From Rhodobacteraceae bacterium Alg231-30 (GTDB taxonomy: Bacteria; Pseudomonadota; Alphaproteobacteria; Rhodobacterales; Rhodobacteraceae), in NCBI GenBank assembly GCA_900143615.1, contig FREU01000003.1:186001-250000 (forward strand): a stretch of DNA of 64,000 nucleotides, read 5' to 3'. Shown in pieces: positions 29,415 to 59,514 of the stretch. The notes below the pieces were generated by a model that was not told where the DNA came from, ran no database searches, and worked only from the letters and a program-made list of their open reading frames with translations. The position numbers and the translations under genes were made by a program. Positions within the stretch are counted from its first letter, which is position 1. Each line of letters opens with the position of its first letter.

Positions 29415-29473
29415 CGCGAGCGCAACAGACATGACCGGGCCATCGCGCCCGAGGAAACGCGAAGGAAGATAAG

Positions 29474-30229
29474 ATGTTGGAAATCAAAGGCCTGAAGGTC
29501 AAACTTGAAGAAGAAGATAAGCAAATCCTCAAAGGTGTTGATTTGACTGTGGAGGCCGGAAAGGTCCATGCGATCATGGGCCCAAATGGCTCAGGCAAGT
29601 CGACCCTGTCTTATGTGCTTTCCGGCCGTGATGGATATGAAGTTACCGAGGGCTCCGCGACTTTGGGGGGCGAAGATTTGCTGGAGTTGGAAGCCGAAGA
29701 GCGCGCAGCCTTGGGTCTTTTCCTAGCGTTCCAGTATCCGGTTGAGATCCCTGGCGTTGGCAACATGACTTTCTTGCGCACGGCGGTGAACGCTCAGCGC
29801 AAAGCGCGCGGCCAAGACGAAATGTCGGCGGCGGAATTTTTGAAAGTGATCCGCGCCAAAGCAAAGACGCTGAAGATCGACGCGGATATGTTGAAGCGTC
29901 CAGTGAATGTTGGCTTCTCAGGTGGTGAGAAAAAGCGTAACGAAATCCTTCAGATGGCCATGTTGGAACCCAAGATGTGCATTCTGGATGAGACCGATTC
30001 AGGTCTGGACGTGGATGCGATGAAACTGGTGGCTGAAGGCGTGAATGCGTTGCGCGATGAGGGACGTGGGTTCCTTGTTATTACGCACTACCAGCGTTTG
30101 CTCGACCATATCAAACCCGACGTCGTACACATTATGGCCAACGGCCGGATCGTGAAGACCGGCGGACCGGATCTTGCGCTGGAAGTTGAGAAAAACGGCT
30201 ATGCCGACATTCTGGCGGAGGTGGCTTAA
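29474..30229 (+). CDS. sufC: Fe-S assembly ATPase SufC
   Basis: ABC-type cytosolic ATPase that drives the SufBCD scaffold. The 251-residue protein has Walker A GPNGSGKST, the SufC-type GLFLAFQYPVEIPGV, signature GFSGGEKKRNEI, and Walker B MCILDETDSGLDVDA. There is no membrane domain. Its stop TAA overlaps the sufD ATG by one base. Confidence 0.97.
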   Translation: MLEIKGLKVKLEEEDKQILKGVDLTVEAGKVHAIMGPNGSGKSTLSYVLSGRDGYEVTEGSATLGGEDLLELEAEERAALGLFLAFQYPVEIPGVGNMTFLRTAVNAQRKARGQDEMSAAEFLKVIRAKAKTLKIDADMLKRPVNVGFSGGEKKRNEILQMAMLEPKMCILDETDSGLDVDAMKLVAEGVNALRDEGRGFLVITHYQRLLDHIKPDVVHIMANGRIVKTGGPDLALEVEKNGYADILAEVA

Positions 30230-33850: not shown

Positions 33851-33927
33851 GCACCCATAGCTCAGCTGGATAGAGCGCTGCCCTCCGAAGGCAGAGGCCA
33901 TAGGTTCGAATCCTATTGGGTGCACCA
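33851..33927 (+). tRNA. tRNA-Arg (anticodon CCG)
   Basis: A 77-nt tRNA with acceptor stem GCACCCA/TGGGTGC, a D arm, anticodon stem CTGCC/GGCAG with loop CTCCGAA (anticodon CCG, codon CGG), T arm GGTTCGAATCC and an encoded ACCA end. It marks the boundary between the suf operon and the accessory peptide region. Confidence 0.96.
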
Positions 33928-34329: not shown

Positions 34330-34575
34330 ATGCTGATTGCATTTACCCGTATGGTCATTGGGCTGAACATTTTTCAAGTTCTAGGTCGGTGTTTGCTCGC
34401 CAAAATTGGCGTGGACATCACCAGTGCGTTTACGACACCGCAAGACATTTTTAGAAAGCCCCCTTCGCTGGTTTTGCCGATAGAATGCATATCGGTGCAA
34501 GCTTGGCTCAGAGTTGCGGGAAGAATGGCAAGCACTTTCCGGATACCTCTATCACCATGTGATGAAGATGTTTGA
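34330..34575 (+). CDS. Possible small protein leading the peptide cluster
   Basis: An 81-residue frame from ATG 34330, with GAGAG six bases upstream. It has a hydrophobic start (MLIAFTRMVIGLNIFQVLG) and no recognised domain. Its end overlaps the proposed start of the radical SAM gene, as in translational coupling. Length and composition alone do not prove it; it could be a chance frame. Confidence 0.35.
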   Translation: MLIAFTRMVIGLNIFQVLGRCLLAKIGVDITSAFTTPQDIFRKPPSLVLPIECISVQAWLRVAGRMASTFRIPLSPCDEDV

Positions 34576-36064
34576 TGTAAGAGCACCAAACACTCGGTCT
34601 TTAATCATTAAGCCTTCGCGCTTTTCCATCATCGTTGCACTCAATAATTCCAAGTATCTGGCCTTCAACACAAACTCGAGATCTTTTGCTCTCTGGGATA
34701 GTAGTGACAAGAAAATTTGGGACGCACTTACTACAAATGGTGAAGCGCGGTTCTCAAAAGAGCATCAAAGTTTTGTGCGGGGCGGCTTTGTTGTAAACGC
34801 CGCGATCAACGAGGTAAATTCGGTTCGGGAGAGCTTTGATCGCGCCCGTAACGACGAAGATCGGGTTATGATCACGATTGCGCCGACGCTGTCGTGTAAT
34901 TTTGGATGCCATTATTGCTTTCAAGGCCAAGACAAACCCGTTGTCCGCATGAGTGCAGAAACCGTCGATGCAACTTGTGACTATCTTGAGAGCCACATGA
35001 AGCAGCGCAAGCATCTACACGTCACCTGGTATGGTGGTGAACCCTTGATGCACCGACCTGCCATTAAGTCAATTTCAGACCGTCTCATGCGTCATTGCGA
35101 AAAACACGGAATTGAGTATTCCGCAATGGTCATTTCCAATGGTTATTTACTTGATGAGACCACGGCCCGGGAGTTGAAAAAGCAAAAGGTATCTAAAGTT
35201 CAGATCACGATCGATGGCGAAGAACAAACCCATGATAGCCGGCGCCATCTCACCAGTGGGCGAGGGACATATTCAAAGATCCTCGCGAATATTGAAAAGA
35301 TCGCGAAGTCACGTCTTATGGACGTCTCGATCCGGATAAATGTCGACCAGAGCAATGAAGCTAACGCTCTGGCATTGCTTGGTGATCTATCGGCGCGAGG
35401 GCTTTCTCTTTCTCAGGGGGTTTCTGTATATTTTGCGCCGATTGAAAGCGTCGCAGAAGCGGCAAGCGCCTGTACGACATGCATGTCTAAAACAGATTAC
35501 GCGGACCTCGAAGTGCGCCTTCAGCAGGAGTCTTTCAGGTTAGGCTTGAGCGGTATCCCCAACCCACCGAGGTTTATGGGATTATGCACTGCAATGAAGG
35601 AAAACAGCTATGTGGTTGTACCCAATGGCGACCTTCACAAGTGCTGGGACACCGTCATGGATTCAAGCAAAAGGGTCGGAAGTGTTTATTCTTCTGATCC
35701 ATCCGTCTCCAGCAAAAATGCAGAATTGTGGTCTGCATTTTCACCTTTTGAAAATGGCACATGCTCGAATTGTAAGCTCTTGCCAACCTGTGCCGGCGCT
35801 TGCGCGTTTAAATTCGTTCACAACGACTATGCGTCTGGCGAAACAGGGAAACTTCCTTGTCCAAGTTGGAAATTCAACATTGCCGAACAACTATTTCAGC
35901 GGGCGATAGCTCGCGGGTTTGTTTCTTCTTCTGATTGGAACCCGGTTCTTAGCCCAACGTTGCAAAACGGATCATTGGTGTCTGGTGCAAACCACACATC
36001 AGAAACGATGAAGTCTATTCACTCCGCTCTTGAGGCGGAAGTTTCAGCGCCCGTTTGGGAGTAA
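34562..36064 (+). CDS. Radical SAM/SPASM peptide maturase
   Basis: A 500-residue (from ATG 34562) radical SAM enzyme. Cys112, Cys116 and Cys119 (CNFGCHYC) bind the SAM cluster, and the TWYGGEPLM segment follows as expected. The C-terminal SPASM region has Cys342, Cys361, Cys401, Cys404, Cys410 and Cys414 (CSNCKLLPTCAGAC) plus a later CPSW cysteine, enough for two auxiliary clusters. The N-terminal 90 residues look like the peptide-binding domain typical of RiPP maturases. The frame is open from TTG 34514, but no ribosome site favours it. The next gene starts inside its end, which points to the repeat protein as substrate. The chemistry (thioether, C-C link or epimerisation) cannot be read from the sequence. 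Confidence 0.88.
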   Translation: MKMFDVRAPNTRSLIIKPSRFSIIVALNNSKYLAFNTNSRSFALWDSSDKKIWDALTTNGEARFSKEHQSFVRGGFVVNAAINEVNSVRESFDRARNDEDRVMITIAPTLSCNFGCHYCFQGQDKPVVRMSAETVDATCDYLESHMKQRKHLHVTWYGGEPLMHRPAIKSISDRLMRHCEKHGIEYSAMVISNGYLLDETTARELKKQKVSKVQITIDGEEQTHDSRRHLTSGRGTYSKILANIEKIAKSRLMDVSIRINVDQSNEANALALLGDLSARGLSLSQGVSVYFAPIESVAEAASACTTCMSKTDYADLEVRLQQESFRLGLSGIPNPPRFMGLCTAMKENSYVVVPNGDLHKCWDTVMDSSKRVGSVYSSDPSVSSKNAELWSAFSPFENGTCSNCKLLPTCAGACAFKFVHNDYASGETGKLPCPSWKFNIAEQLFQRAIARGFVSSSDWNPVLSPTLQNGSLVSGANHTSETMKSIHSALEAEVSAPVWE

Positions 36065-39000
36065 GCGAGCGGTTAATTAGTAAATATAGTTCCGAGAGAA
36101 AGCGATTGGTCATGCAGTTTATCGATGAAGCACCCGCCTTTAGTCAGAAAGCCATCTCTGTTCAGCAAGCGATCGTATCTGGGCGACTTCGGATCTTTAT
36201 GGAGCAAGGCTGTGAAAAGCTTGCGGACAGCTTCACCCCTTCTCTGGAGCAGGCAAACGCCTTTGACAAAAGTATCGACGCGCGAGTTCACTTTTCGTCC
36301 TTGTCACCGTCGGTCAAACTGGACCTTCTACTTGAAGAGCTTTTGCCAAGGTTCTTTGACGAACAAAACCTGGAAATGACCGGGCGTGATAGCTGGACGG
36401 TTCGGATTTTGATTGACGAGACACAAGAGCGGACCGTTCTGTTTGATCAGGATGGTGTTCATGTGTCCAATGTTCCCGCGCCATCAGCTGACGTAGAAAT
36501 CCAGACCGATATCGGAACACTTTTGGCCGTATTGCGCCAAATTATCGCTGATTTCCACACTGATGGACCATCTTACATTAGCCCCGAAATCGCTGGGATC
36601 GAAGTTTTGAGTGCCGAATATGCCTCCTCTGTGCACGGGGGAATGCCCGTCGCAGACCCGGAAGAGCAATCTGATGAGGGCAATGAAGGAGACGAAGGAG
36701 ACGAGGCCAATGAAGATAATGAAGGCGATGAATTAGACGAGGGCGATGAAGGCAACGAAGACGACGAAAACGATGAAGGTGACGAGGCCGACGAAAATAA
36801 CGAGGGCAATGAGGGCAACGAAAAAGACGAAAACGATGAGGGGAACGAGGGCAACGAAAACAACGAAGGTGATGAAGGAAACGAGGGCAACGAAGACGAC
36901 GAAGGAAATGAGGGCGGTAACGAGGGGGATGAGGGAGACGAAAACGACGAAAATAATGAAGGTGATGAAGGGAACGAGGGCAACGAAAACGACGAAGATG
37001 ATGAAGGCAACGAGGGGAATGAATCAAACGAAGATAACGAGGGTGATGAGGGTGATGAGAACAATGAGGGCGATGAGATAAATGAGGGCGACGAAGGCAA
37101 CGAAGGTGATGAAAACAATGAGGGTGATGAAGCAAATGAAGACAATGAAGGAAATGAGCTAAACGAAAACGATGAAGGGGACGAAAGAAACGAAAACGAT
37201 GAGGACAACGAGGGCGACGAAGATAATTTAATTAATTCTGGCGATGAGAACGACGAAGGTAACGAGGATAACGAAGGCAACGAGAATAACGAGAACGACG
37301 AAAACGACGAAGGCGATGAAGCCAACGAAGACAATGAAGGGGACGAGGGCGACGAAGGGAACGAGGGCGACGAGCGCAACGAGGACAACGAGAACGACGA
37401 AGACGACGAAGGTAACGAAGACAACGAAGCTAACGAAGACGATGAGGGCGACGAGGGCGACGAGGGCGACGAGTATAACGAAGGCGACGAAGACAACGAA
37501 GGCGACGAAGGCGACGAGTTTAATGAGGGAGACGAGTCTGAAAGTCAGGGTGATGAAGGCGACGAGGGCGACGAAGATAACGAAGGCAATGAAAACGACG
37601 AAGACGACGAAGGTAACGAAAACGACGAGCATGACGAAGGAGATGAGGCAGACGAAGGCGACGAAGATGATGAAGGGGATGAGGGGAACGAAGGCGCGGA
37701 AAATGATGAAGATGATGAAGGCGATGAAAACGATGAAGGGAATGAAGGGAATGAGGCCAACGAAGGCGATGAAAACGATGAAGGGGATGAAGGAAACGAA
37801 AGTGACGAAGATAATGAAAATGATGAGGGGGATGAAGGTAACGAAGGTGATGAATCTGTCACTGTAGGAGATGAAGGAAACGAAGGGGATGAGGCCAACG
37901 AAGGCTCGGAAGATGACGAAGGAAACGAAGGGGATGAGAACGACGAACTAGACGAGAATAATGAAGGTGATGAAGGGAACGAAGGAGACGAGGGCAACGA
38001 GGGCAACGAAGGTCACGAAGGAAACGAAGACGACGAAAACAACGAAGAAGACGAGAACGATGAAGGCGACGAGGGAAATGAAGGCAACGAGAACGACGAG
38101 GGTTCGGAAGGAAATGAAGGAGATGAGGATAACGAAGGCAATGAAAATAATGAGCACGATGAGGACGACGAAGGCGACGAAGGCAATGAAGACAATGAGT
38201 CTGACGAAGGCGTAGAGGGGAACGAAGGCAACGAAAACGATGAAGGTAATGAAGGGAATGAAGGCGCAGAAGGAAATGAGGGGGATGAAGACAACGAGGG
38301 CGACGAAAGCAGTGAAAGCACTGGTGATGAAGGTGATGAGAATAATGAAGGGAATGAGGGTGACGAAGACAACGAGGGCGACGAAGACGACGAGAACAAT
38401 GAGGGCGTAGAAGGCGACGAAGGCGACGAGAATGACGAGGGGAACGAGGGTTTCGAACGCGACGAAGGCGATGAGGACGACGAGTCCAATGAAGGCAATG
38501 AAGGCAACGAAAACGATGAACTAGATGAAGGCAACGAAGGTGACGAGGGCAACGAAGATAGTGAGGGCGACGAAGGCGACGAAGGTGACGAAACCGACGA
38601 AGGCAATGAGTCAAACGAGGGAGATGAAGGCGACGAGCAGGATGAGGGCAACGAGGGCAACGAAGACAATGAAAATGATGAACGCGATGAAGGCGACGAG
38701 GGTGATGAAGCCAACGAAAACAATGAAGATAATGAGGGCGATGAAGACGATGAGGGAATTCTTCAGGATGAATTCAATGAAGGGAATGAAGACAATGAAG
38801 GCAACGAGAGGGATGAAGGGGATGAAGGTAACGAAGGTATAGAAGGCAACGAAGGCAACGAGTTCGACGAAGACGATGAAGGCAATGAAGGCGATGAAGA
38901 AAACGAAGGAGACGAGAATAATGAAGGGGACGAATTAAACGAAGGTAATGAGTCTGACGAAGATGATGAGGGAGACGAAGGCGACGAAAATAACGAAAGC

Positions 39001-39630
39001 GATGAAGGCAACGAGGACGACGAAGGCGACGAAAACGACGAGGGTAATGAAGGCAACGAAGGCAATCCCTTCAATGGAAATGACGAAAACGACGAAGGCA
39101 ACGAAGGCAACGAAGGCGACGAGGGAGACGAAGGCAACGAAAGTGACGAAGGCGACGAAGACAATGAAAATGACGAAGATGATGAGGGCGACGAACACAA
39201 CGAGGGAAATGAAAACAACGAAGGGGACGAAGGCGACGAAAACAACGAAGGTGACGAAAACAACGAAGGTAATGAGAACGACGAGAACGACGAAGGTAAT
39301 GAAAACGATGAAGGAAACGAAAACGATGAAGGAAACGAAGGGGATGAAGGCATCCTCGGAGCGTCCTCAAATGTTTCCGATGTGTCTTCGTGCGCTGGAT
39401 ATGCCTGTGGGGCTGACGGTGGATTGGATATGTACGGTGGCGACGCCTGTGGCGCCGATGCCTGTGCGGTCGATGCGGGCGGGCAATGGCAAGACATGCC
39501 TGAAGATGCGCCTATCGGCGCCGATCTTGCTGGCGGCCTAGGTGTAGACGGACGCAAATTGTCGATTGATGATGCTGATAGTGACGGAGCGTGTGCGTTG
39601 GATGCTGGAGGCTTTGATACCGGTGCTTAA
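36055..39630 (+). CDS. Giant acidic triplet-repeat precursor with Gly-Gly leader and ACxxD tail
   Basis: A 1191-residue protein in four parts, numbered from TTG 36055. Residues 1-196 form a folded-looking leader; residues 110-165 (TVRILIDE, VLFDQDGVHVS, ADVEIQTDIGTLLAVL) resemble an SCP2-like fold. It ends in VHGG at 195-196, a Gly-Gly site with hydrophobic residues at -4 and -12. Residues 207-1099 are (D/N)-E-x triplets, x mostly G, D or N. Residues 1100-1191 are a Gly/Ala/Asp-rich tail with five cysteines. The gene overlaps the maturase stop by 10 bases; ATG 36112 is an alternative start (leader 19 shorter). Adaptor, C39 exporter and maturase genes beside it point to a secreted modified peptide. 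No homologue is known to me. Confidence 0.85.
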   Translation: MGVSERLISKYSSERKRLVMQFIDEAPAFSQKAISVQQAIVSGRLRIFMEQGCEKLADSFTPSLEQANAFDKSIDARVHFSSLSPSVKLDLLLEELLPRFFDEQNLEMTGRDSWTVRILIDETQERTVLFDQDGVHVSNVPAPSADVEIQTDIGTLLAVLRQIIADFHTDGPSYISPEIAGIEVLSAEYASSVHGGMPVADPEEQSDEGNEGDEGDEANEDNEGDELDEGDEGNEDDENDEGDEADENNEGNEGNEKDENDEGNEGNENNEGDEGNEGNEDDEGNEGGNEGDEGDENDENNEGDEGNEGNENDEDDEGNEGNESNEDNEGDEGDENNEGDEINEGDEGNEGDENNEGDEANEDNEGNELNENDEGDERNENDEDNEGDEDNLINSGDENDEGNEDNEGNENNENDENDEGDEANEDNEGDEGDEGNEGDERNEDNENDEDDEGNEDNEANEDDEGDEGDEGDEYNEGDEDNEGDEGDEFNEGDESESQGDEGDEGDEDNEGNENDEDDEGNENDEHDEGDEADEGDEDDEGDEGNEGAENDEDDEGDENDEGNEGNEANEGDENDEGDEGNESDEDNENDEGDEGNEGDESVTVGDEGNEGDEANEGSEDDEGNEGDENDELDENNEGDEGNEGDEGNEGNEGHEGNEDDENNEEDENDEGDEGNEGNENDEGSEGNEGDEDNEGNENNEHDEDDEGDEGNEDNESDEGVEGNEGNENDEGNEGNEGAEGNEGDEDNEGDESSESTGDEGDENNEGNEGDEDNEGDEDDENNEGVEGDEGDENDEGNEGFERDEGDEDDESNEGNEGNENDELDEGNEGDEGNEDSEGDEGDEGDETDEGNESNEGDEGDEQDEGNEGNEDNENDERDEGDEGDEANENNEDNEGDEDDEGILQDEFNEGNEDNEGNERDEGDEGNEGIEGNEGNEFDEDDEGNEGDEENEGDENNEGDELNEGNESDEDDEGDEGDENNESDEGNEDDEGDENDEGNEGNEGNPFNGNDENDEGNEGNEGDEGDEGNESDEGDEDNENDEDDEGDEHNEGNENNEGDEGDENNEGDENNEGNENDENDEGNENDEGNENDEGNEGDEGILGASSNVSDVSSCAGYACGADGGLDMYGGDACGADACAVDAGGQWQDMPEDAPIGADLAGGLGVDGRKLSIDDADSDGACALDAGGFDTGA
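36673..39351 (+). repeat. About 297 tandem (D/N)-E-x coding triplets
   Basis: Imperfect 9-base units of the form RAY-GAR-NNN run for 2679 bp. Glu at the second position is nearly invariant, Asp and Asn alternate at the first, and the third is mostly Gly, Asp or Asn with scattered A, L, K, S, I, R, Y, F, H, Q or T. Synonymous third bases vary freely (GAC/GAT, GAA/GAG, all four Gly codons) while the protein pattern holds, so the reading frame is under selection. Short interruptions occur near residues 390, 493, 601, 751, 901 and 1003. Confidence 0.95.
39391..39627 (+). other. Cysteine-containing tail with four A-C-x-x-D motifs
   Basis: The tail has Cys1113, 1118, 1132, 1137 and 1180. Four of the five are in A-C-x-x-D with a following A or G (Asp1121, 1135, 1140, 1183); the first is in CAGY. 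Regularly spaced Cys and Asp beside a SPASM maturase recall Cys-to-Asp thioether crosslinks known from QhpC and the ranthipeptide freyrasin. That this happens here is inference. Confidence 0.6.
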
Positions 39631-39663
39631 AGAGGTGAAGGTCTGCGATCGAAAGAGCAACGA

Positions 39664-41271
39664 ATGAAGTTGGTGTTCGTATCAGTTTTTTGGCTGGCTT
39701 TAGCGATTGTCGTCCTATTCGTTCCGATTTCCTTCTCGGTTGATGGCTTTGGCCTTGTCGTCAATCCGGGAGGAGTAAAAACCGTTCGCGCCAGGGAATC
39801 TGGAGTCGTGTACCATTATTCAGCCACTGGGCAAGAATTCGCAGCAGGGCAAATTGTTTCGGCGGTTGTACGTGTGGAAAGTGCCGCAGAAAATGATTTT
39901 TTGATGGGAACGCTGCGTCGAGACCTTGCGAAGATCGACAGTGATCACTTGGAGAAAACGTCAAAGGTTTTGGTGGATTTAGAGCGTGATAGCGCAAAGA
40001 AGGACGCCACTGAGCAACGTCTAAAAGCCAGAATGTCGTTAACGCACGATATGAGTAAAGCGCTGGTGGAATTGAGAGATTTTACTCAATTGAGCGATGC
40101 CGACATTGATGCGCTGAACGCAGAGCGGTTGAGCCAACTTGATAAACTTGAAAACCTTTTGCGAAAATCCGGAGAGAACGCGGTTCTACCGGCGCAAAAG
40201 CTTGCTGCGATGCTGGATGGGGTCCAGACTTCACGTCTCGCGGTAATTTCCAGTAAGGGAACGCAATTCGTATCCGAGAGAATGGTGTTGGATCTGGTCA
40301 AAGACCTGACAGAACAACAGTATTCTAATGCTATCGACGAGGCCGAAATTGACATTCTATTTGGCAAAATAGTTGCATCTGAGCAGCAGCTCATCGAACT
40401 TGAAAAATTGTCCGCAGCGTTGCGCCAAGAAGCCAATGCGCGTTACCTTGCCAAGCTCAAATTGCCGCAAGTCACCGTTGCGGGAGGTGCCGTTTTGGAC
40501 ATGAGAATGCTTCAGCCTTCGCGCGCTGAAGTAACCAAAGGCGACGCGCTTCGGATTTTGTCTGAAAGAACTCCCGCACAGGGTTTGTTAATAACCGTGG
40601 TGGGAGAGTTTTCAGAAGGCTCAGTGGCTCTAAAACACAACCAAAAGCGGTTTCAACTTTCATTGACGGATACAGTTGATGATACAATGGCAGAATTGGT
40701 CGAGGCTCAAATGCCGATTTCGAAGGTCACTAAAGACCATGCAACCGTCGGAGAGTTTTATGTAACCACACTGTTTCTTGCCGGCGAAAGTGCTGAAATG
40801 AACGGTTTGCAAGTCGTAGAAGCCAGCGCATTTTCCAAAGACAAAACGCCGATTTCGGTGACGCATGAATTTCTGCGCCACAGCGGCTCTGGAAGCTTGG
40901 ACGAAACAGAGTATTCAAACACCATTATCGGTTTTTTAGAGAACAGACACTCAGTGTCTCTGCGGCCCAATCAAATTGTTAAGGGAACAATTCACGATCT
41001 GGAGAATGGCGAAGAGATCGAGTTCGGAGGGAGGCTGCGAAATCGTGATTTTGCAACGGTTGATACAAAAGAGCTCGGAATTCGTTTAGGAAACCAATCG
41101 CTCGCCACCAAAATTATTGCGCGGGGGGTGCTCTCTCAGGTGACCGTGAAGATCGACGACCCCGCAAATGAAAATGTACAAAAGCTTGCCGGGTCACTTG
41201 TGCATTTGAGTTTCCCTTTAGGAAGCAGGTCATTGTTCAGTTTCTTGTGGGCAAAAGATGCTGCGATTTAG
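39664..41271 (+). CDS. HlyD-like membrane fusion (adaptor) protein
   Basis: A 535-residue protein with one N-terminal membrane segment (FVSVFWLALAIVVLFVPISF), a lipoyl-like half (RARESGVVYHYSATGQEFAAGQIV), about 200 residues of charged coiled coil with many K, E and L heptads, and beta-rich parts after it. This is the layout of type I secretion adaptors of the NHLM/bacteriocin kind. It would link an inner-membrane exporter to an outer-membrane channel; no TolC-like gene is in the window. It starts 33 bases after the precursor gene and overlaps the next gene by 14 bases. Confidence 0.8.
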   Translation: MKLVFVSVFWLALAIVVLFVPISFSVDGFGLVVNPGGVKTVRARESGVVYHYSATGQEFAAGQIVSAVVRVESAAENDFLMGTLRRDLAKIDSDHLEKTSKVLVDLERDSAKKDATEQRLKARMSLTHDMSKALVELRDFTQLSDADIDALNAERLSQLDKLENLLRKSGENAVLPAQKLAAMLDGVQTSRLAVISSKGTQFVSERMVLDLVKDLTEQQYSNAIDEAEIDILFGKIVASEQQLIELEKLSAALRQEANARYLAKLKLPQVTVAGGAVLDMRMLQPSRAEVTKGDALRILSERTPAQGLLITVVGEFSEGSVALKHNQKRFQLSLTDTVDDTMAELVEAQMPISKVTKDHATVGEFYVTTLFLAGESAEMNGLQVVEASAFSKDKTPISVTHEFLRHSGSGSLDETEYSNTIIGFLENRHSVSLRPNQIVKGTIHDLENGEEIEFGGRLRNRDFATVDTKELGIRLGNQSLATKIIARGVLSQVTVKIDDPANENVQKLAGSLVHLSFPLGSRSLFSFLWAKDAAI

Positions 41272-43045
41272 CCGGTTTTGGATACATGTTTTGTGGTATC
41301 TCCTTCGAAGACAAAAGCTCTTTGTTCTTCAAACCACACGCACCGACTGTGGAGTTGCATCGGCATTAACCATTTTAGGACTATTAGGCCGGCATGTCGG
41401 CATCAGCGAAACTCTAAATAGGCTCGATCGCGATAGAGTGGGAACCGATCTCGAAAACCTTCGGGCGTTCTTAAGTGAGAACTTGGAAGCTCCATGTCGG
41501 TGCATATCGGTAGAGCCGGCAATGTTGGAGCAAATTAGGTTGCCAGCAATTGCGCATCTGCGACAGCTACATTTTGTTGTTCTGCTAAGTATCAGCAAAG
41601 ATCGAGTCTTTGTTCATGATCCAGCGATTGGACCAGTAATCTATCGCAGGAAACACTTCGATCAACTGTCTTCAAATCACCTGATCGAGTGTCGTGATTT
41701 CAAATCAAAACGGGTCCAAAAATTGGCCCGTCCAAAGAAAAACGGACTTCGAAACCAACGGATATCGCTATTTATTCTTGAGACGGCGAAACAATTGCTT
41801 TTGGTTGGTTTGCTGCTGGCGGTGAGTACATTTCTATTTCTCGCTTTAAACCAAGTCGGCGAGTTTTCGATGATAAAATCCGGTCTTGGTTTGGCGTTTC
41901 TGGGCTTGCTTGTTTTGCTCATTCGAGTGCAATCCTCGACTCTTCAGGCGCGGGTCAAAACGCTGCATCAAAGGGAATTTCTACAGGGATGTCTGAGGGT
42001 GTTTTCACGCGGGCGCGACCTGATTGGTTTTAGGGGGCGGCCGGAGCGTGATGTTGCAAATCACGTGAAACGCGTTTTAGAAATCGATGTACCCCGAAAT
42101 GGACAGCTCCCGACAGTCATCGCATCCATTGCGGTTGCACCTCTCATTTTGATGTTTTTGTCGTGGAAAATAGCGGTTGCTTGGATCTCTCTCATTTCCG
42201 TGTCATTTTTGTTTACGCTTTTGGGACGGGTTCACAAATGTGAGTTGTCCGTCCGGCAGACCAGTGGGCGTTACACCAGATTGTTTGCAGGGCACCCGAT
42301 TTTTGGGCACGTTAGTACTTCGGAGTTTTGCGGCGAAGTTGCTAAATGGTCCGTCATTCTCGTGGCTGGACTTGGCGTGTTACTCGGTACAGTGCAGCCC
42401 CCTTCACTCGTGTTTTGGGTTTTGTTCGCGATGCAGTCTGGGCCCACAAATTTCCGTCTTGTTGGTCAGCTGTTACCCATTTGCGAGCAGAAAAGAGGGT
42501 TGCCCGACTTAATCGGAACGGTGGTGGAAAACCGCATTCAGGCTGCCAGGAAAAAGCGCGATATTCGTGTGACTGAATCTGATGCCAAAATCATTATTGA
42601 GGAATATTCAGATTTGATTTCTCCCCTTCAACGACCGGATTTGACGTCACTTGAACAACGTTTGGTTATTGCCTCTGCGGTTGAGGCGATGGTTTCTGAT
42701 CTTTCACATGCCAACAATGACATCTTGCACAAGATACGCGTGTTTGGACCTGGACAAGAAGCCACTTCTGTTGATCTGGAATTTTGTAGAGATCTTGTTG
42801 CCAACAAAAATGTAGCAGTGCGTGAAGAAAAGAATGATGTGCCTTCAGTCATTGGTGCGGACATACAGCAGCATGTCGCAAGAGCCCTAATTGTGTGCGA
42901 AGCAAAAGATTTTCCTGTCTTTTGGGATGTGCATTCCCGCATTGAGATTGCAGATCTTGCTGAACAAGTTTTACAAACCGAACTGTCTTTTGTCGGCCAT
43001 TTGACCTTTGACAAGTTCACGATAGTAAGGAGGGCCGTCGCGTGA
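41258..43045 (+). CDS. C39-peptidase ABC exporter-like protein with degenerate ATPase part
   Basis: Residues 20-140 are a peptidase C39 domain with catalytic Cys31 (TDCGVAS), His105 (LHFVVLL) and Asp121 (VHDPAIG), able to cut after Gly-Gly leaders. Residues about 175-410 hold the ABC-exporter membrane helices. The last 185 residues lack a Walker A motif (no GxxxxGK[ST]) and an LSGGQ signature; LIGTVVENRI and HVARALIVCEAKDFPVFWD look like worn remnants of an ATPase domain. At 595 residues it is over 100 shorter than normal C39 exporters. Overlaps with both neighbours indicate co-translation. The Gly-Gly precursor two genes upstream is the obvious substrate. Confidence 0.82.
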   Translation: MLRFSRFWIHVLWYLLRRQKLFVLQTTRTDCGVASALTILGLLGRHVGISETLNRLDRDRVGTDLENLRAFLSENLEAPCRCISVEPAMLEQIRLPAIAHLRQLHFVVLLSISKDRVFVHDPAIGPVIYRRKHFDQLSSNHLIECRDFKSKRVQKLARPKKNGLRNQRISLFILETAKQLLLVGLLLAVSTFLFLALNQVGEFSMIKSGLGLAFLGLLVLLIRVQSSTLQARVKTLHQREFLQGCLRVFSRGRDLIGFRGRPERDVANHVKRVLEIDVPRNGQLPTVIASIAVAPLILMFLSWKIAVAWISLISVSFLFTLLGRVHKCELSVRQTSGRYTRLFAGHPIFGHVSTSEFCGEVAKWSVILVAGLGVLLGTVQPPSLVFWVLFAMQSGPTNFRLVGQLLPICEQKRGLPDLIGTVVENRIQAARKKRDIRVTESDAKIIIEEYSDLISPLQRPDLTSLEQRLVIASAVEAMVSDLSHANNDILHKIRVFGPGQEATSVDLEFCRDLVANKNVAVREEKNDVPSVIGADIQQHVARALIVCEAKDFPVFWDVHSRIEIADLAEQVLQTELSFVGHLTFDKFTIVRRAVA

Positions 43046-44289
43046 AACAGATTGTCGCTCCAACACTTGATGAGCTGTGGCCATTTGAACAAGTTGCTGT
43101 TCCTTCAGAGCTCTCTGGGGTGCGCGTAGACAGATTTTTTGCCACTTTAAAGTCCACCATGCACAATTCAATTCGGGTTACCGAAGTGACATCTGAGGAT
43201 GTGGCGCCTATAGCCGCCTACGCGATAAAGCTTAGTAGCACCAAAAACGGTTTGGTAAGGTCGGTCTGGTCAGCAAAGGCAGGGGCGTGGGTCGACGCGA
43301 TAGATTACAAGGTGGACGTGAGCCTTAAAGAGCGAATTTTTGTAATCGAATTCAATGGCGTATTGCTTGGAAATGTGACCACGCCAGAAGAATTATCAGT
43401 CAGGGTTCACCTCTTGTTTCAAAAGACCTTGGCCACAGTGGGTGTGATGCGTCTGTTTTCGAGATTGCTGGCGGTTTTTTCTATTATGATGCTTTTCTAT
43501 GCTATTCGAATAGGCGTAGAAGCTTCTGCTATCGAGCCTTTCGCCGTTATTTTTGCAGCGGCCTTTTCGGTTTCAATGGCGGCAGTATATATGCGGCAAA
43601 GGTGCCGTTCTCTCATCGACACGTCCACCAACTTGTTGCAGGAGCAATTCTTATTTGAGTATAATGCGTCTTCGCATAGTTCCCTGAAAGTCTCCGATAT
43701 TTCCAAACTGATGAAGGGAATTGACCGAACTCAGGAGGAGAAATCCGTCGTTTTCGGGTTTTGTTTGTTGCTGACTTTTGTGTACTTTATTTCTCCACTC
43801 ATTGTTGTCGCCGCCATCGTTTCGTTGTTCTTAGGTGTGTTACTGATCGGCTCTGAAAACAGTAGCCAGCATCGCGATATGGCGCGTCGACGGGCTGTTC
43901 TAAGATTGGAGAATGCGGTTTTGTCCTTTAGGACGGGGAATGATTTATTCGCTCCACCGATACTGCGAAGTGCAAAGAAAAGCGTGCTACGCGACCGGTT
44001 AAAACGATTTGAAAAAATTAATTCGGCGCTGAAAAGGCATGAGCTTGGTTCCGAGCTACGCGTTGATTTAGCGCATTCTGTTGCATTGATTGCGATTGTA
44101 GGCGCCTACGTTCTACCGCTGGCGGTTGGTGTCCAACAATCAGCGAGTAACTTAGCAAGTTCATTTGAAACAGTTTCACTGTTTTCTGTTGCGCCAGTTA
44201 TTGTCTTGATCAGCATTAGTAAGGCAACCGTTGCGACCTCGATCGTGACGTGTCGGAAAATCGACGGTATTTCTAGAACTGACCGCTGA
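43042..44289 (+). CDS. ABC-exporter-like membrane protein without ATPase domain
   Basis: A 415-residue protein: a soluble N-terminal domain of about 130 residues, then roughly five to six membrane segments arranged as in an ABC exporter permease. It stops after the membrane part, so the nucleotide-binding domain is absent. It resembles the second, peptidase-less exporter of NHLM-type bacteriocin systems cut short. It starts with GTG overlapping the C39 gene stop by 4 bases and probably forms a heteromer with that protein. It ends the rightward string. Confidence 0.68.
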   Translation: MKQIVAPTLDELWPFEQVAVPSELSGVRVDRFFATLKSTMHNSIRVTEVTSEDVAPIAAYAIKLSSTKNGLVRSVWSAKAGAWVDAIDYKVDVSLKERIFVIEFNGVLLGNVTTPEELSVRVHLLFQKTLATVGVMRLFSRLLAVFSIMMLFYAIRIGVEASAIEPFAVIFAAAFSVSMAAVYMRQRCRSLIDTSTNLLQEQFLFEYNASSHSSLKVSDISKLMKGIDRTQEEKSVVFGFCLLLTFVYFISPLIVVAAIVSLFLGVLLIGSENSSQHRDMARRRAVLRLENAVLSFRTGNDLFAPPILRSAKKSVLRDRLKRFEKINSALKRHELGSELRVDLAHSVALIAIVGAYVLPLAVGVQQSASNLASSFETVSLFSVAPVIVLISISKATVATSIVTCRKIDGISRTDR

Positions 44290-44298
44290 GTATTCCAG

Positions 44299-44976
44299 TC
44301 ATTTTTTCCTCGGAACTTGATTTATGTTGAAACTCACAATGACCCGGTCACTTTCACGCCCCGTTCCTTCGGCTAAATTTGGTTCAACGCTGTGGTATAA
44401 CCAACTCGGAAAAAACAACATTTTTCCAGCTGTTGGTTGAACCTTAACCTTAGTCCAACATTCTGATTTTCTCTGAGTTTTGCGTTTGAAACTGGCACCA
44501 TTCATGAGGTGGACGGTTCTTGGGTCCGTAAATTCGATTTTTCCGGCTCCCTCTGGGGAGTGCACGTAGTAGACCCCGGACCAGAGTGCTCCGGGATGTA
44601 TGTGGGCTCGGTTGGAGCTGCCGGGAGGGTTAGAGATAGACCACATCGTTGTTACTTTTAGTTCTTTTGAGGGATCATAAACCAAGTCTTTGCTAATTTC
44701 CGCGGCGGCTATCTCTATGCGATCCGTCAACCGTTGAAAGTTCGGGTTTTTGTGGAGATTGTTTTGGCTGTGCCAACTTCCAAGAGATTTAAAATTCGAG
44801 CGTTCAATTCCATCTGAATCACGGCTGTGTTCTTCGTAGATTGCGGCCAGGATTTCTTTGTTCATCGAGACCGCATCTTGCAGTTGGACCGAATAAACGA
44901 GCGTAGGGAAATATGCTGATCTCTTTAGCTCGTCAGAATTTTCATTTCCGGGGAGATTTGCTATTTTTTTAACCAT
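44299..44976 (-). CDS. 2OG-Fe(II) oxygenase-like protein (TIGR02466-type)
   Basis: A 225-residue protein resembling the small putative 2-oxoglutarate/Fe(II) oxygenases: HIHPGALWSGVYYVHSPEGAG supplies the first iron-ligand region, FFPSWLYHSVEPN the distal His, and SDRVIVSFNIN the 2OG-binding Arg. GGAAGG lies 5 to 6 bases before the ATG. It is leftward and ends 10 bases from the end of the peptide operon. A hydroxylase would suit a target rich in Asp and Asn, but a link to the cluster rests on position alone. Confidence 0.75.
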   Translation of the reverse strand: MVKKIANLPGNENSDELKRSAYFPTLVYSVQLQDAVSMNKEILAAIYEEHSRDSDGIERSNFKSLGSWHSQNNLHKNPNFQRLTDRIEIAAAEISKDLVYDPSKELKVTTMWSISNPPGSSNRAHIHPGALWSGVYYVHSPEGAGKIEFTDPRTVHLMNGASFKRKTQRKSECWTKVKVQPTAGKMLFFPSWLYHSVEPNLAEGTGRESDRVIVSFNINQVPRKK

Positions 44977-45025: not shown

Positions 45026-45907
45026 TTAAGCTTTGTCACAAGCCGCTGTTTTCGCAGCCCCATTGTCCAATGATTTTTCTTGCTCTGCACTCATTTCAAA
45101 AATTTGCGAAAGTACGTCTAGCCGGAACGGGATTTTTTCCATTATGTCACGACTGTCCACGGGGGGGATCCGGCCGGGATGTACTTGCAATGCGTAAGCA
45201 AAGAGCGCGCTTTCAGCCAGATCTTCCCGTTCGGGATTATTTTTGGCGTAATCTGTCAGGAATTCACCATCTCTTTGTTGTGCATCTCGCCATGCACTTG
45301 AATTCGAATGATCTTTGTCGAGCGACACATGCACGGCTTCATGAAACAAAGATTCTTCCAAGTGACGCTGCTCAATTCGCCTCTTTGTCCGTTCGGCATA
45401 GACAAATATTTTCCCAGCCCCCGCTGAGTAAATTGGCGTGCCGTCGTGAACACCGATAAACTCTACCCCTTTACGCAGAAAACTGGGTAGCTGCCCAATT
45501 GGGTGCGCGTAGATTTCAGCCTGTCGGCGTGCCGCTGTTTCCGTCCCGAATTCCGCATTTACGAAAATTTCAATGAGCTTGCTTTCTCCGGAGTAGTAAG
45601 CGTGGAAAAGAAACCCCTCGGCATCGTACTCTCGGTCCACTCGTTTGTCCCACATCTGTCTAATTGCGGGGCCTTGAGTGATCAAACATTCAAACGCCGA
45701 AGAGTCCGAGGTTGTGATGATGTCAAACACGGTATCTGAAGTTGAATCGTATAGAGGTTGCGCAAGTACCGCAGATGGCAAAAACAAAAACGGGGCAACT
45801 ACAGTCCGAATATTCGTTTCGAGTTTAGGGGACTGTAGCGCGGTCAATTCTAGCGGCCGGAATACAGGGCATGATCGAATAATAATTTTGAACAAAAAAC
45901 GAAACAT
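45026..45907 (-). CDS. Exported HEAVH metallopeptidase-like protein
   Basis: About 293 residues from ATG 45907. A hydrophobic segment ending in PSAVLAQP looks like a signal peptide with an unusually long N-region; a TTG further in (MTALQS) would shorten it. The mature part has the zinc motif HEAVH and, 30-40 residues on, YAKNNPEREDLAESALFAY, the third-ligand Glu region typical of gluzincin-type peptidases. The substrate is unknown. It sits 49 bases upstream of the oxygenase gene in the same direction, so they may share a transcript. Confidence 0.68.
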   Translation of the reverse strand: MFRFLFKIIIRSCPVFRPLELTALQSPKLETNIRTVVAPFLFLPSAVLAQPLYDSTSDTVFDIITTSDSSAFECLITQGPAIRQMWDKRVDREYDAEGFLFHAYYSGESKLIEIFVNAEFGTETAARRQAEIYAHPIGQLPSFLRKGVEFIGVHDGTPIYSAGAGKIFVYAERTKRRIEQRHLEESLFHEAVHVSLDKDHSNSSAWRDAQQRDGEFLTDYAKNNPEREDLAESALFAYALQVHPGRIPPVDSRDIMEKIPFRLDVLSQIFEMSAEQEKSLDNGAAKTAACDKA

Positions 45908-46121
45908 AACAGTCTCATTATGCACAAAGCCCCTAAAATAGCACGATTTTTCAAGGAATCCGCATGCCATTTTCAGCCAAATTTGCCGCTTAAGAGATCA
46001 TTTTTGCGCAAAGTTACTGATTGGAATGGTTGCGTGAGAACAAAGAGTATCAAAAATCAAAGCAGGAGGGCATTGGCTGAATTGCGCATCGGAACCAGAG
46101 ATCCCGACGCGCGTTTTTGAT

Positions 46122-58766: not shown

Positions 58767-59514
58767 TATCATATTGCAGGCGCGGGGTTTGCAGAAATCA
58801 TTCGGAGCACTACGTGTCACTGATGATGTTTCCCTTGAGGTGCGCAGCGGCGAAATTCACGCTTTGATCGGGCCAAACGGTGCGGGAAAGTCGACTTTGG
58901 TTCAGCAGCTCACTGGGCATTTGGAATCGGATGCCGGGCAAGTCGCGTTGTGTGGTCAGGACGTTACGTCTTTGGGGCCAGTGGAGCGTGCTGCCAAAGG
59001 CTTGGGACGTACATTCCAAATATCGGCATTGGCCATGGAGAACAGCGTACTGCAAAATGTTGTGCTAGGCGCATTGGGGCGTCGCGGCGGTGTGTTTCGA
59101 TTCTTTGCGCCTGTGATGAAAGACCGCGCGCTTCTGGATGTTGCGAATAACGCGCTCGCGCGAGTAGGATTGCGCGCCCAAGCCAAGGTGCGCACATCGG
59201 ATTTATCGCATGGGCAGCGACGCCAACTAGAAGTGGCCGTTGCGCTCACCCAATCCCCCAAGGCGTTCTTGATGGATGAACCTATGGCTGGCTTGGGATT
59301 GGAAGGAGCAGGCCAAATGATCGATCTATTGCGCAAGTTGCGTGCCGAGGCTCCGATCTTACTTATCGAACATGATATGGACGCTGTGTTTGCCTTGGCC
59401 GATCGGATCAGCGTTTTGGTTTATGGCAAAATCATCGCCACTGGGGCACCTGAGGACATTCGCCGCAATCGTGAAATCCAATTGGCTTATCTGGGTAAGG
59501 AAGCTGAGTTATGA
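58759..59514 (+). CDS. Liv-type ABC importer ATPase, LivG-like
   Basis: A 251-residue ATPase with Walker A GPNGAGKST, Q-loop in GLGRTFQ, signature LSHGQRRQLEVA (His in place of Gly in LSxGQ, seen often in LivG), Walker B AFLMDEPMAGLG, and switch LIEHDMD. The C-terminus YLGKEAEL is the LivG-type tail. The ATG lies inside the end of livM. Confidence 0.93.
   Translation: MTDIILQARGLQKSFGALRVTDDVSLEVRSGEIHALIGPNGAGKSTLVQQLTGHLESDAGQVALCGQDVTSLGPVERAAKGLGRTFQISALAMENSVLQNVVLGALGRRGGVFRFFAPVMKDRALLDVANNALARVGLRAQAKVRTSDLSHGQRRQLEVAVALTQSPKAFLMDEPMAGLGLEGAGQMIDLLRKLRAEAPILLIEHDMDAVFALADRISVLVYGKIIATGAPEDIRRNREIQLAYLGKEAEL

Follow-up and report, generated by a model that had tools for sequence, protein, structure and literature searches.

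Which part of a giant, repetitive protein does a radical S-adenosylmethionine (SAM)/SPASM enzyme encoded beside it modify, and what else acts on the chain? This question is raised by a locus of Rhodobacteraceae bacterium Alg231-30, located in a 64,000-nt stretch of contig FREU01000003.1 (the window; coordinates below are positions in it), in which a protein built mainly of Asx-Glu-x triplets (Asx being Asp or Asn) is encoded next to such an enzyme. A preliminary description of this DNA took the repeats to be the substrate of the enzyme. However, proximity of a radical SAM gene to a repeat gene does not by itself identify the repeat as the substrate. The explanation that best fits the whole of the evidence, to which we give a probability of about 0.45, is that a giant Asx-Glu-x protein is modified separately in two of its parts, exported and able to bind metal. 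Downstream of a tRNA-Arg gene (33851-33927), the plus strand carries, in this order, the radical SAM/SPASM, repeat, HlyD-like, C39 and second membrane protein genes, and the minus strand of the same locus carries a 2-oxoglutarate (2OG)-Fe(II) oxygenase and an HExxH protein. Their parts are as follows.

34514..36064, plus strand: radical SAM/SPASM peptide maturase, closest to TIGR04463 (CNFGCHYC cluster motif; family profiles)
36112..36591, plus strand: D160 domain, N-terminal part of the giant protein (weak SCP2-like model of its second half)
36592..36672, plus strand: end of the leader with the Gly-Gly site (codons 36637-36642), then MPVADPEEQS
36673..39351, plus strand: repeat domain, 893 aa, 278 (D/N)-E-x triplets and short interruptions
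39352..39630, plus strand: C-terminal Cys tail with CGAD, CGAD, CAVD and CALD motifs and GADLxGGL (weak CefA match)
39664..41271, plus strand: HlyD-like adaptor, 535 aa (TIGR03794 6.4e-05, far below cut-off)
41258..43045, plus strand: C39 peptidase and membrane domain, PCAT-like to about residue 415 (PF03412 1.9e-19)
43042..44289, plus strand: TM2, second membrane protein, without Walker A or ATP-binding cassette (ABC) signature
44299..44976, minus strand: 2OG-Fe(II) oxygenase (TIGR02466, PF13759), putative Asx hydroxylase of the repeats
45026..45970, minus strand: HExxH (HEAVH) protease-like protein (no Pfam or NCBIfam match)

The five plus-strand genes had been recognized in the preliminary description and are all present, open and correctly placed, but the oxygenase and the HExxH protein had escaped it. 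The repeat gene had been described as coding for 1191 residues and overlapping the enzyme gene. Its start is most likely the ATG at 36112 (MQFIDE..) rather than the TTG at 36055, because relatives begin with MQFIDQ at the matching place; the gene (36112-39630) thus encodes 1172 aa and does not overlap the radical SAM gene, which ends at 36064. The estimate of about 297 acidic triplets holds well: the 893-residue core, which contains no Cys, has 278 [DN]E-x triplets, with 59 residues outside them (overall composition E 292, D 191, N 178, G 165), corresponding to about 297 triplet slots, and a looser count across the whole window frame gives 281 triplets. The Gly-Gly leader and the Cys tail are likewise as described.

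We examined whether these genes belong together (hereafter, L numbers denote fetched relative stretches and G numbers genomes). A search of genome contigs with the enzyme returned 15 loci, nine of them at 54-57% identity and one at 59% over a broken frame; with L029 (G255) added, eleven close loci were available. Arenibacterium halophilum, Seohaeicola saemankumensis and Sedimentitalea strains are among the named relatives. The order enzyme, then repeat gene, D160 gene or repeat remnant, HlyD, C39, TM2 and oxygenase is kept in seven of the eleven (L014, L016, L018, L019, L020, L021 and L022). An HExxH homologue lies nearby in six of these seven, the copy in L021 being weaker and on the other strand, and none was found in the fetched stretch of L019. 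As for the remaining four, L015 runs off the end of the fetched stretch, the contigs of L017 and L024 are short, and in L029 only enzyme, HlyD, C39 and TM2 are present. In G255 two repeat genes lie elsewhere in the genome and the oxygenase and HExxH genes stand side by side about 115 kb away, and G005 has four repeat genes, coding for up to 2463 aa; precursors can therefore lie far from the enzyme. Across 394 genomes of the family, the radical SAM enzyme was found at E 1e-40 in 11 (seven at ≥54% identity), TM2 in eight, and the Cys tail in eight at 1e-4, six of them at 1e-9 or better; the seven enzyme genomes and the six strong-tail genomes all fall inside the eight TM2 genomes. The two weak tail matches, G210 (E 3.5e-6) and G190 (4.9e-5), come without enzyme or exporter and with no repeat gene shown. 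Among 385 genomes of the class the tail occurs in two, the window's own genome and, as a weak match, a same-genus genome that lacks enzyme and TM2, so the locus is patchy. Taken together, these observations support that the genes form a real, conserved system. As to its origin, plasmid and phage sources were considered and rejected: all 150 plasmid records matched by the enzyme were below 60% identity, the oxygenase matched one plasmid record, not near repeats, and phage oxygenases were all below 60% identity (≤33% among the matches listed).

We then asked what is conserved in the repeat protein, which consists of the D160 domain, the Gly-Gly leader, the core and the Cys tail. Gly-Gly precedes the repeats in all 15 proteins with an intact leader (L055, cut before its leader, is outside this count), the site being GGMP or GGAP in 14 of them and GGMA in L049. 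The triplet rule was counted in 15 proteins, over 2815 slots that were themselves free and had two canonical triplets before them and two after. Asp (1421) and Asn (1252) together fill position 1 in 2673 slots, with Thr (36), Ser (34), Val (27), Glu (10) and Gln (3) among the rest. Position 2 holds Glu in 2713, the exceptions including Pro (45), Ala (16), Leu (14), Asp (5) and Gln (1) but never Lys, and position 3 is most often Gly (1741), followed by Asn (402) and Asp (324). Regular interruptions, TPN or VAN, account for many of the slots without Glu; in the window protein alone, position 2 is Glu in 216 of 217 framed slots. Glu, Asp, Asn and Gly codons are mixed in the window gene, and the same first-base substitution by which Asp and Asn interchange would convert Glu to Lys, which never occupies position 2; selection therefore acts per triplet and tells Asp from Glu. 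This bears on the idea, close to the polyanion of the preliminary description, that the polymer is chosen for charge only (as an ion buffer, adhesive or matrix) and undergoes no sequence-specific step. The charge is certainly large, about 477 net negative charges in 893 residues as calculated from composition, but Asp and Glu are not interchangeable in the triplet and nearly half of the first positions are uncharged Asn. The protein is thus unlikely to be a bulk polyanion, and we regard selection for charge only as scarcely probable.

Other origins and likenesses of the repeat were also considered. Fresh DNA slippage was rejected: the window gene lacks any exact 30-bp DNA repeat and its codons are mixed. 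Relatives hold longer exact repeats, so recent duplication does occur there, and none reaches 96 bp in any of the 15. Matches to collagen or SclB/Lcl adhesins were set aside as compositional: PF01391 (Collagen) matches, but Gly occupies position 3 in only 54% of the window triplets. Several relatives are distinctive in themselves. L050:3638-11029 encodes a 2463-residue repeat protein with 712 triplets on a contig other than that of its genome's radical SAM locus, and L049:5147-10225 a 1692-aa one whose interruptions carry recurrent tyrosine clusters (YYYY). The repeat gene at L016:11867-12288 is shortened and frame-broken in a metagenome assembly, probably through repeat collapse, so short-read genomes may hide such genes. 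The D160 domain is fused to the repeats in the window, L021, L049 and L053, is a separate gene in L018, L020 and L022, and has weak relatives (19-23% identity) near the radical SAM gene in L030, L031 and L032. Its model (predicted local distance difference test, pLDDT, 81.5) is weakly SCP2-like in the second half (best Z 6.0, 2yhe_A, root mean square deviation (rmsd) 3.1, 81 aligned), and its top structure matches, weak ones (Foldseek E 0.037), are SCP2 proteins and alkylsulfatases, which carry an SCP2-like C-terminal domain.

The first candidate substrate of the radical SAM enzyme is the tail. The enzyme matches PF04055 (6.5e-16) and aligns to TIGR04463 with 485.5 bits over 438/438 positions; its relatives in L020, L030, L031 and L032 score 434-481 bits against the same model and that in L013 scores 589.6, and the PapB model gives the window enzyme 130.5 bits, below its cut-off of 340. 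TIGR04463 calls for an adjacent Cys-rich target, and the tail provides one, with five Cys in 87 residues and Cys-x2-Asp motifs; 25 columns are invariant in an alignment of eight tails. At gene level, Gly-Gly leader, tail and radical SAM gene are encoded together, as in a ribosomally synthesized and post-translationally modified peptide (RiPP), the modification being a prediction. In G286, G342 and G328, radical SAM relatives (37-40% identity) adjoin giant Cys-rich proteins of 478-554 aa, and the fetched stretches show no (D/N)-E-x repeats beside these TIGR04463-like enzymes. Giant Cys-rich genes lie at L030:3476-5140, L031:11937-13379 and L032:9565-11001 (minus strand); the Cys-x2-Asp/Asn motifs of their products are mostly spaced 7, 9 and 10, and the L030 and L031 proteins match no Pfam or NCBIfam family. 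The residue at C+3 is Asp or Asn in 28/33, 36/40 and 17/24 cases in L030, L031 and L032, respectively, and in 16/28 in the Methylomagnum CefA (L013). Because the Cys-x2-Asp/Asn motif is common to the tail and to the Cys-rich partners of related enzymes, the enzyme most likely works on the tail. PapB, according to an excerpt of PMC9413430, can join Cys to either Asp or Glu, and in the Cys-xn-Asp motifs that it accepts n ranges from 0 to 6; by analogy, a thioether in the window tail is likely.

The repeats have companions of their own. Orthologues of the oxygenase (>430 bits) are found in all eight TM2 genomes, the frame in G220 having two stops, and the next-best score in a 198-genome draw is 320 bits; HExxH homologues score above 360 bits in seven of the eight. 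For the assignment, we compared window-like loci with C39 protein and TM2 (type A) with those of G025 (L066) and G038 (L067) (type B). The giant type B proteins have Glu at position 2 in 234/237 and 189/194 slots, respectively, and end in repeat, with neither Cys tail nor Gly-Gly leader. Beside their genes stand an ordinary type I ABC exporter with nucleotide-binding domain, an HlyD protein, an oxygenase (316-318 bits) and an HExxH homologue, the oxygenase gene of G025 lying between repeat gene and exporter on one strand. In neither of the two genomes was such a radical SAM enzyme (at E 1e-40), TM2 or the tail found. At L067:6260-6979 (minus strand), beside the type B repeat gene, lies a gene for a second protein resembling a zinc protease (HEFGH). 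Conversely, in the three genomes in which radical SAM relatives adjoin Cys-rich partners, the best oxygenase score is only 66-71 bits and the HExxH profile has no match at 1e-10. From these contents, which on the type B side are those of two genomes, radical SAM follows the Cys tail and oxygenase plus HExxH protein follow the repeats; the window holds both modules.

The module comparison bears on two other explanations. That the radical SAM enzyme has the Glu/Asx repeats as its substrate, which would make the locus a new RiPP class as in the preliminary description, would agree with the tight co-occurrence of enzyme, exporter and repeats and with the acceptance by PapB of Glu at the cross-link site (excerpt of PMC9413430). 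Nevertheless, the repeats of G025 and G038 obey the same rule without the enzyme, related enzymes pair with Cys-rich proteins that have no repeats, and PapB-like chemistry needs Cys, absent from the window core, which makes this explanation very unlikely. The preliminary description had itself named repeat homologues lacking maturase or exporter genes as a finding that would tell against it: the two type B genomes indeed lack the maturase, but both have an exporter. Alternatively, the repeats might be an unmodified spacer or stalk displaying the modified Cys tail, with the oxygenase acting elsewhere. Complete reading frames do differ widely in length, from 625 to 2463 aa, whereas the tail is conserved; yet a passive spacer would not forbid the change of Glu to Asp or Lys, and the oxygenase tracks the repeats, present without a tail in both type B proteins, so that we consider a spacer role unlikely.

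To look at the substrate of the oxygenase from another side, we turned to its paralogues. Low-scoring oxygenases (75-102 bits) occur at 44 places, and the neighbourhoods of 36 were fetched, the others being in G098, G158, G119 (C547), G129, G067 (C47), G126 (C59), G081 and G005 (C23). An acidic, mostly Asp-rich protein lies directly beside the oxygenase in 6 of the 36 neighbourhoods (L076, L079, L083, L114, L128 and L129, around 5.8-8.8 kb) and in none of 20 random stretches; it is possible that these six represent a wider oxygenase-substrate family. A tree of 46 oxygenases places the window clade and the rows with acidic neighbours together on the same side of a 100/99 branch. Of the 33 paralogue rows, selected by score irrespective of neighbour, 5/7 on the side of the window clade have an acidic neighbour vs 0/26 on the other (Fisher 8.8e-05, a P value that ignores relatedness, related rows not being independent). 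L083, L087 and L124 were left out of the tree for stops reported in their frames, although L083 does have acidic neighbours; L068, also reported with a stop, was read without one on re-reading and kept. Counting all 46 rows, an acidic or repeat neighbour is found in 16/20 vs 0/26, a count that is inflated because 12/13 window-clade rows were chosen for lying in such loci, L016a and L016b share one broken repeat gene, and the L068 repeat is short and relaxed; the test therefore rests on the 33 paralogue rows. L086, on the acidic-neighbour side, has no acidic neighbour at the thresholds used. In G102 (L068) the repeat lies just upstream of the oxygenase, and in G171 (L070) the neighbour has short NEG runs and calcium-loop-like stretches. 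Since acidic or repeat proteins neighbour the oxygenases on the window side of the tree, we propose Asx in acidic repeats as their substrate. AspH, a 2OG oxygenase, hydroxylates both Asp and Asn (excerpt of PMC6817910).

How the chain would leave the cell is less straightforward. Cys31, His105 and Asp121 of the C39 domain, which we take to be the catalytic residues of the peptidase, are invariant in nine proteins, and residues 18-415 model like PCAT1 (9azl_A Z 18.5, rmsd 5.4, 364 aligned; whole-model pLDDT 69); the last 180 residues are partly conserved, e.g. DFPVFWD in the window. Of the two exporter-like proteins of the preliminary description, one thus has the peptidase residues, but neither has a Walker A or ABC signature motif, and none was found in the nine C39 and nine TM2 proteins of nine loci, under a scan that gave both motifs in the ABC protein L023 and Walker A in the window SufC. 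With respect to PCAT/AMS exporters, therefore, the C39 residues are present and the nucleotide-binding domain is missing. Searching solved structures with the TM2 profile yielded no confident match (best E 0.18), and the HlyD-like adaptor is 46-51% identical among relatives whose copy is full-length. No credible ATPase gene near type A loci emerged when the window and nine loci were scanned for motifs: in the window the scan gave a SufC-like gene (29435-30226) and, at 59508, an ABC gene, in L015 an opposite-strand frame over the HlyD and C39 genes, and in the other eight nothing. Export could use an ATPase from elsewhere, or the chain could be pulled by folding outside, the latter being speculation. 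Calcium-driven folding ratchets RTX proteins through type I ducts, according to an excerpt of a review (PMC6891781).

We can now set out the proposed explanation as a sequence of steps. The radical SAM/SPASM enzyme would act on the Cys tail, most likely forming Cys-to-Asp thioether rings in the Cys-x2-Asp motifs, as PapB does. The oxygenase would hydroxylate the Asp and Asn of the (D/N)-E-x triplets, the beta carbon being the most likely site. The C39 protein would cut after Gly-Gly and, with TM2 and the HlyD-like adaptor, export the chain, and the HExxH protein, probably secreted as its N-terminus reads, may act on it outside or in the periplasm. Once outside, the array of Asx and Glu ligands would bind calcium or other divalent metals, which may order the chain as a stalk, gel or matrix polymer. 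A more specific form of this proposal, a new class of secreted bacterial biopolymer in which a ribosomally made, Asx-hydroxylated chain of hundreds of triplets orders on calcium and, in the case of the window, leaves through an ATPase-less C39 exit under the pull of a calcium ratchet and bears a thioether cap, seems to us quite unlikely. We give about as little credence to the repeats being a structural array, such as a calcium-bound solenoid, that the oxygenase merely tunes or accompanies as a linked passenger. Swapping of Asp and Asn with a fixed Glu and frequent Gly resembles calcium-loop logic, and a relative (34% identity) of the type B exporter stands beside an RTX calcium-binding protein (PF00353 2.1e-31) in L074; against this, Collagen was the only Pfam match of the window repeat protein, with none to RTX nonapeptides (PF00353) or EF-hands.

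Several results weigh against the explanation of two separately modified parts. On the tail side, the window enzyme scores below the TIGR04463 curated cut-off of 525, though this is the top-scoring of the families listed, and the tail matches CefA (NF038108) at only E 0.0067 and 16.3 bits (cut-off 30); moreover, CefA has Cys at every fifth residue, and a spacing of 5 occurs just twice in the tail (CAGYAC, CGADAC). The Cys-rich partner in the gammaproteobacterial L025 has Asp or Asn at C+3 in only 3/20 cases, and the Cys-x2-D/N motif is therefore common but not universal in this enzyme group. On the repeat side, the oxygenase gene runs opposite to the repeat gene in the window, the HExxH homologue of G005 lies outside the locus (250 bits), and the contig of L018 carries the type A genes without a repeat gene. 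Taken without the tree, 6/36 vs 0/20 gives only P 0.06, and neither L069, in the window clade, nor L075, on the acidic-neighbour side, has a repeat or acidic neighbour at the thresholds. The related oxygenase of L069 (L069:2229-9157) stands beside SecA-like, M50/PqqD-like and HlyD/GAF proteins and a very large other protein. Literature on TIGR02466, judged by title, suggests no function for the family. Finally, transport by C39 and TM2 is only predicted because the nucleotide-binding motifs are absent, and metal binding is proposed from residue logic alone.

If the explanation were true, bacteria would possess a hydroxylated polymer that is genetically encoded, ordered by metal and as long as about 2400 residues. 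It would in part resemble collagen and its hydroxylase, and be written in a repeat code with fixed residue chemistry and free sequence. It would also suggest a function for a clade of TIGR02466 oxygenases and raise the question of how a peptidase exporter without ATPase motifs works. In the open-access literature, judged by title and the start of the abstract, we found no account of this repeat protein, this clade of oxygenases or this variant of exporter.

Known systems share parts of this arrangement. Like the window, TIGR04463/CefA loci pair a radical SAM gene with a giant neighbour carrying Cys-x2-Asp/Asn motifs (679 aa for CefA of the Methylomagnum plasmid), but the window confines the motif to a short tail, adds exporter, oxygenase, HExxH protein and a giant Asx-Glu-x domain, and scores below both family cut-offs. 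Ranthipeptides (PapA/PapB, freyrasin), characterized by a thioether from Cys to a non-alpha carbon, have a similar SPASM enzyme and a Cys-xn-Asp motif; PapA has Cys-x3-Asp (excerpt of PMC9413430), whereas Cys-x2-Asp in the window ends a protein of more than 1000 residues. PCAT/AMS and NHLM exporters share the C39 peptidase, membrane domain and HlyD-like partner, and differ from the membrane proteins of the nine window-type loci, which are devoid of Walker A and ABC signature. RTX/type I secretion also combines a giant, repetitive acidic protein with an exporter, and type B loci use an ordinary type I ABC exporter with HlyD; however, the window repeat is an Asx-Glu-x triplet rather than the nonapeptide of PF00353. 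With AspH and other Asp/Asn hydroxylases the locus has in common a 2OG-Fe(II) oxygenase with, as proposed here, Asp or Asn as substrate position; the window enzyme, a putative hydroxylase, differs in belonging to the TIGR02466/PF13759 family. The locus is best filed with TIGR04463/CefA-like RiPP-type systems, and its repeat module may be a class of its own.

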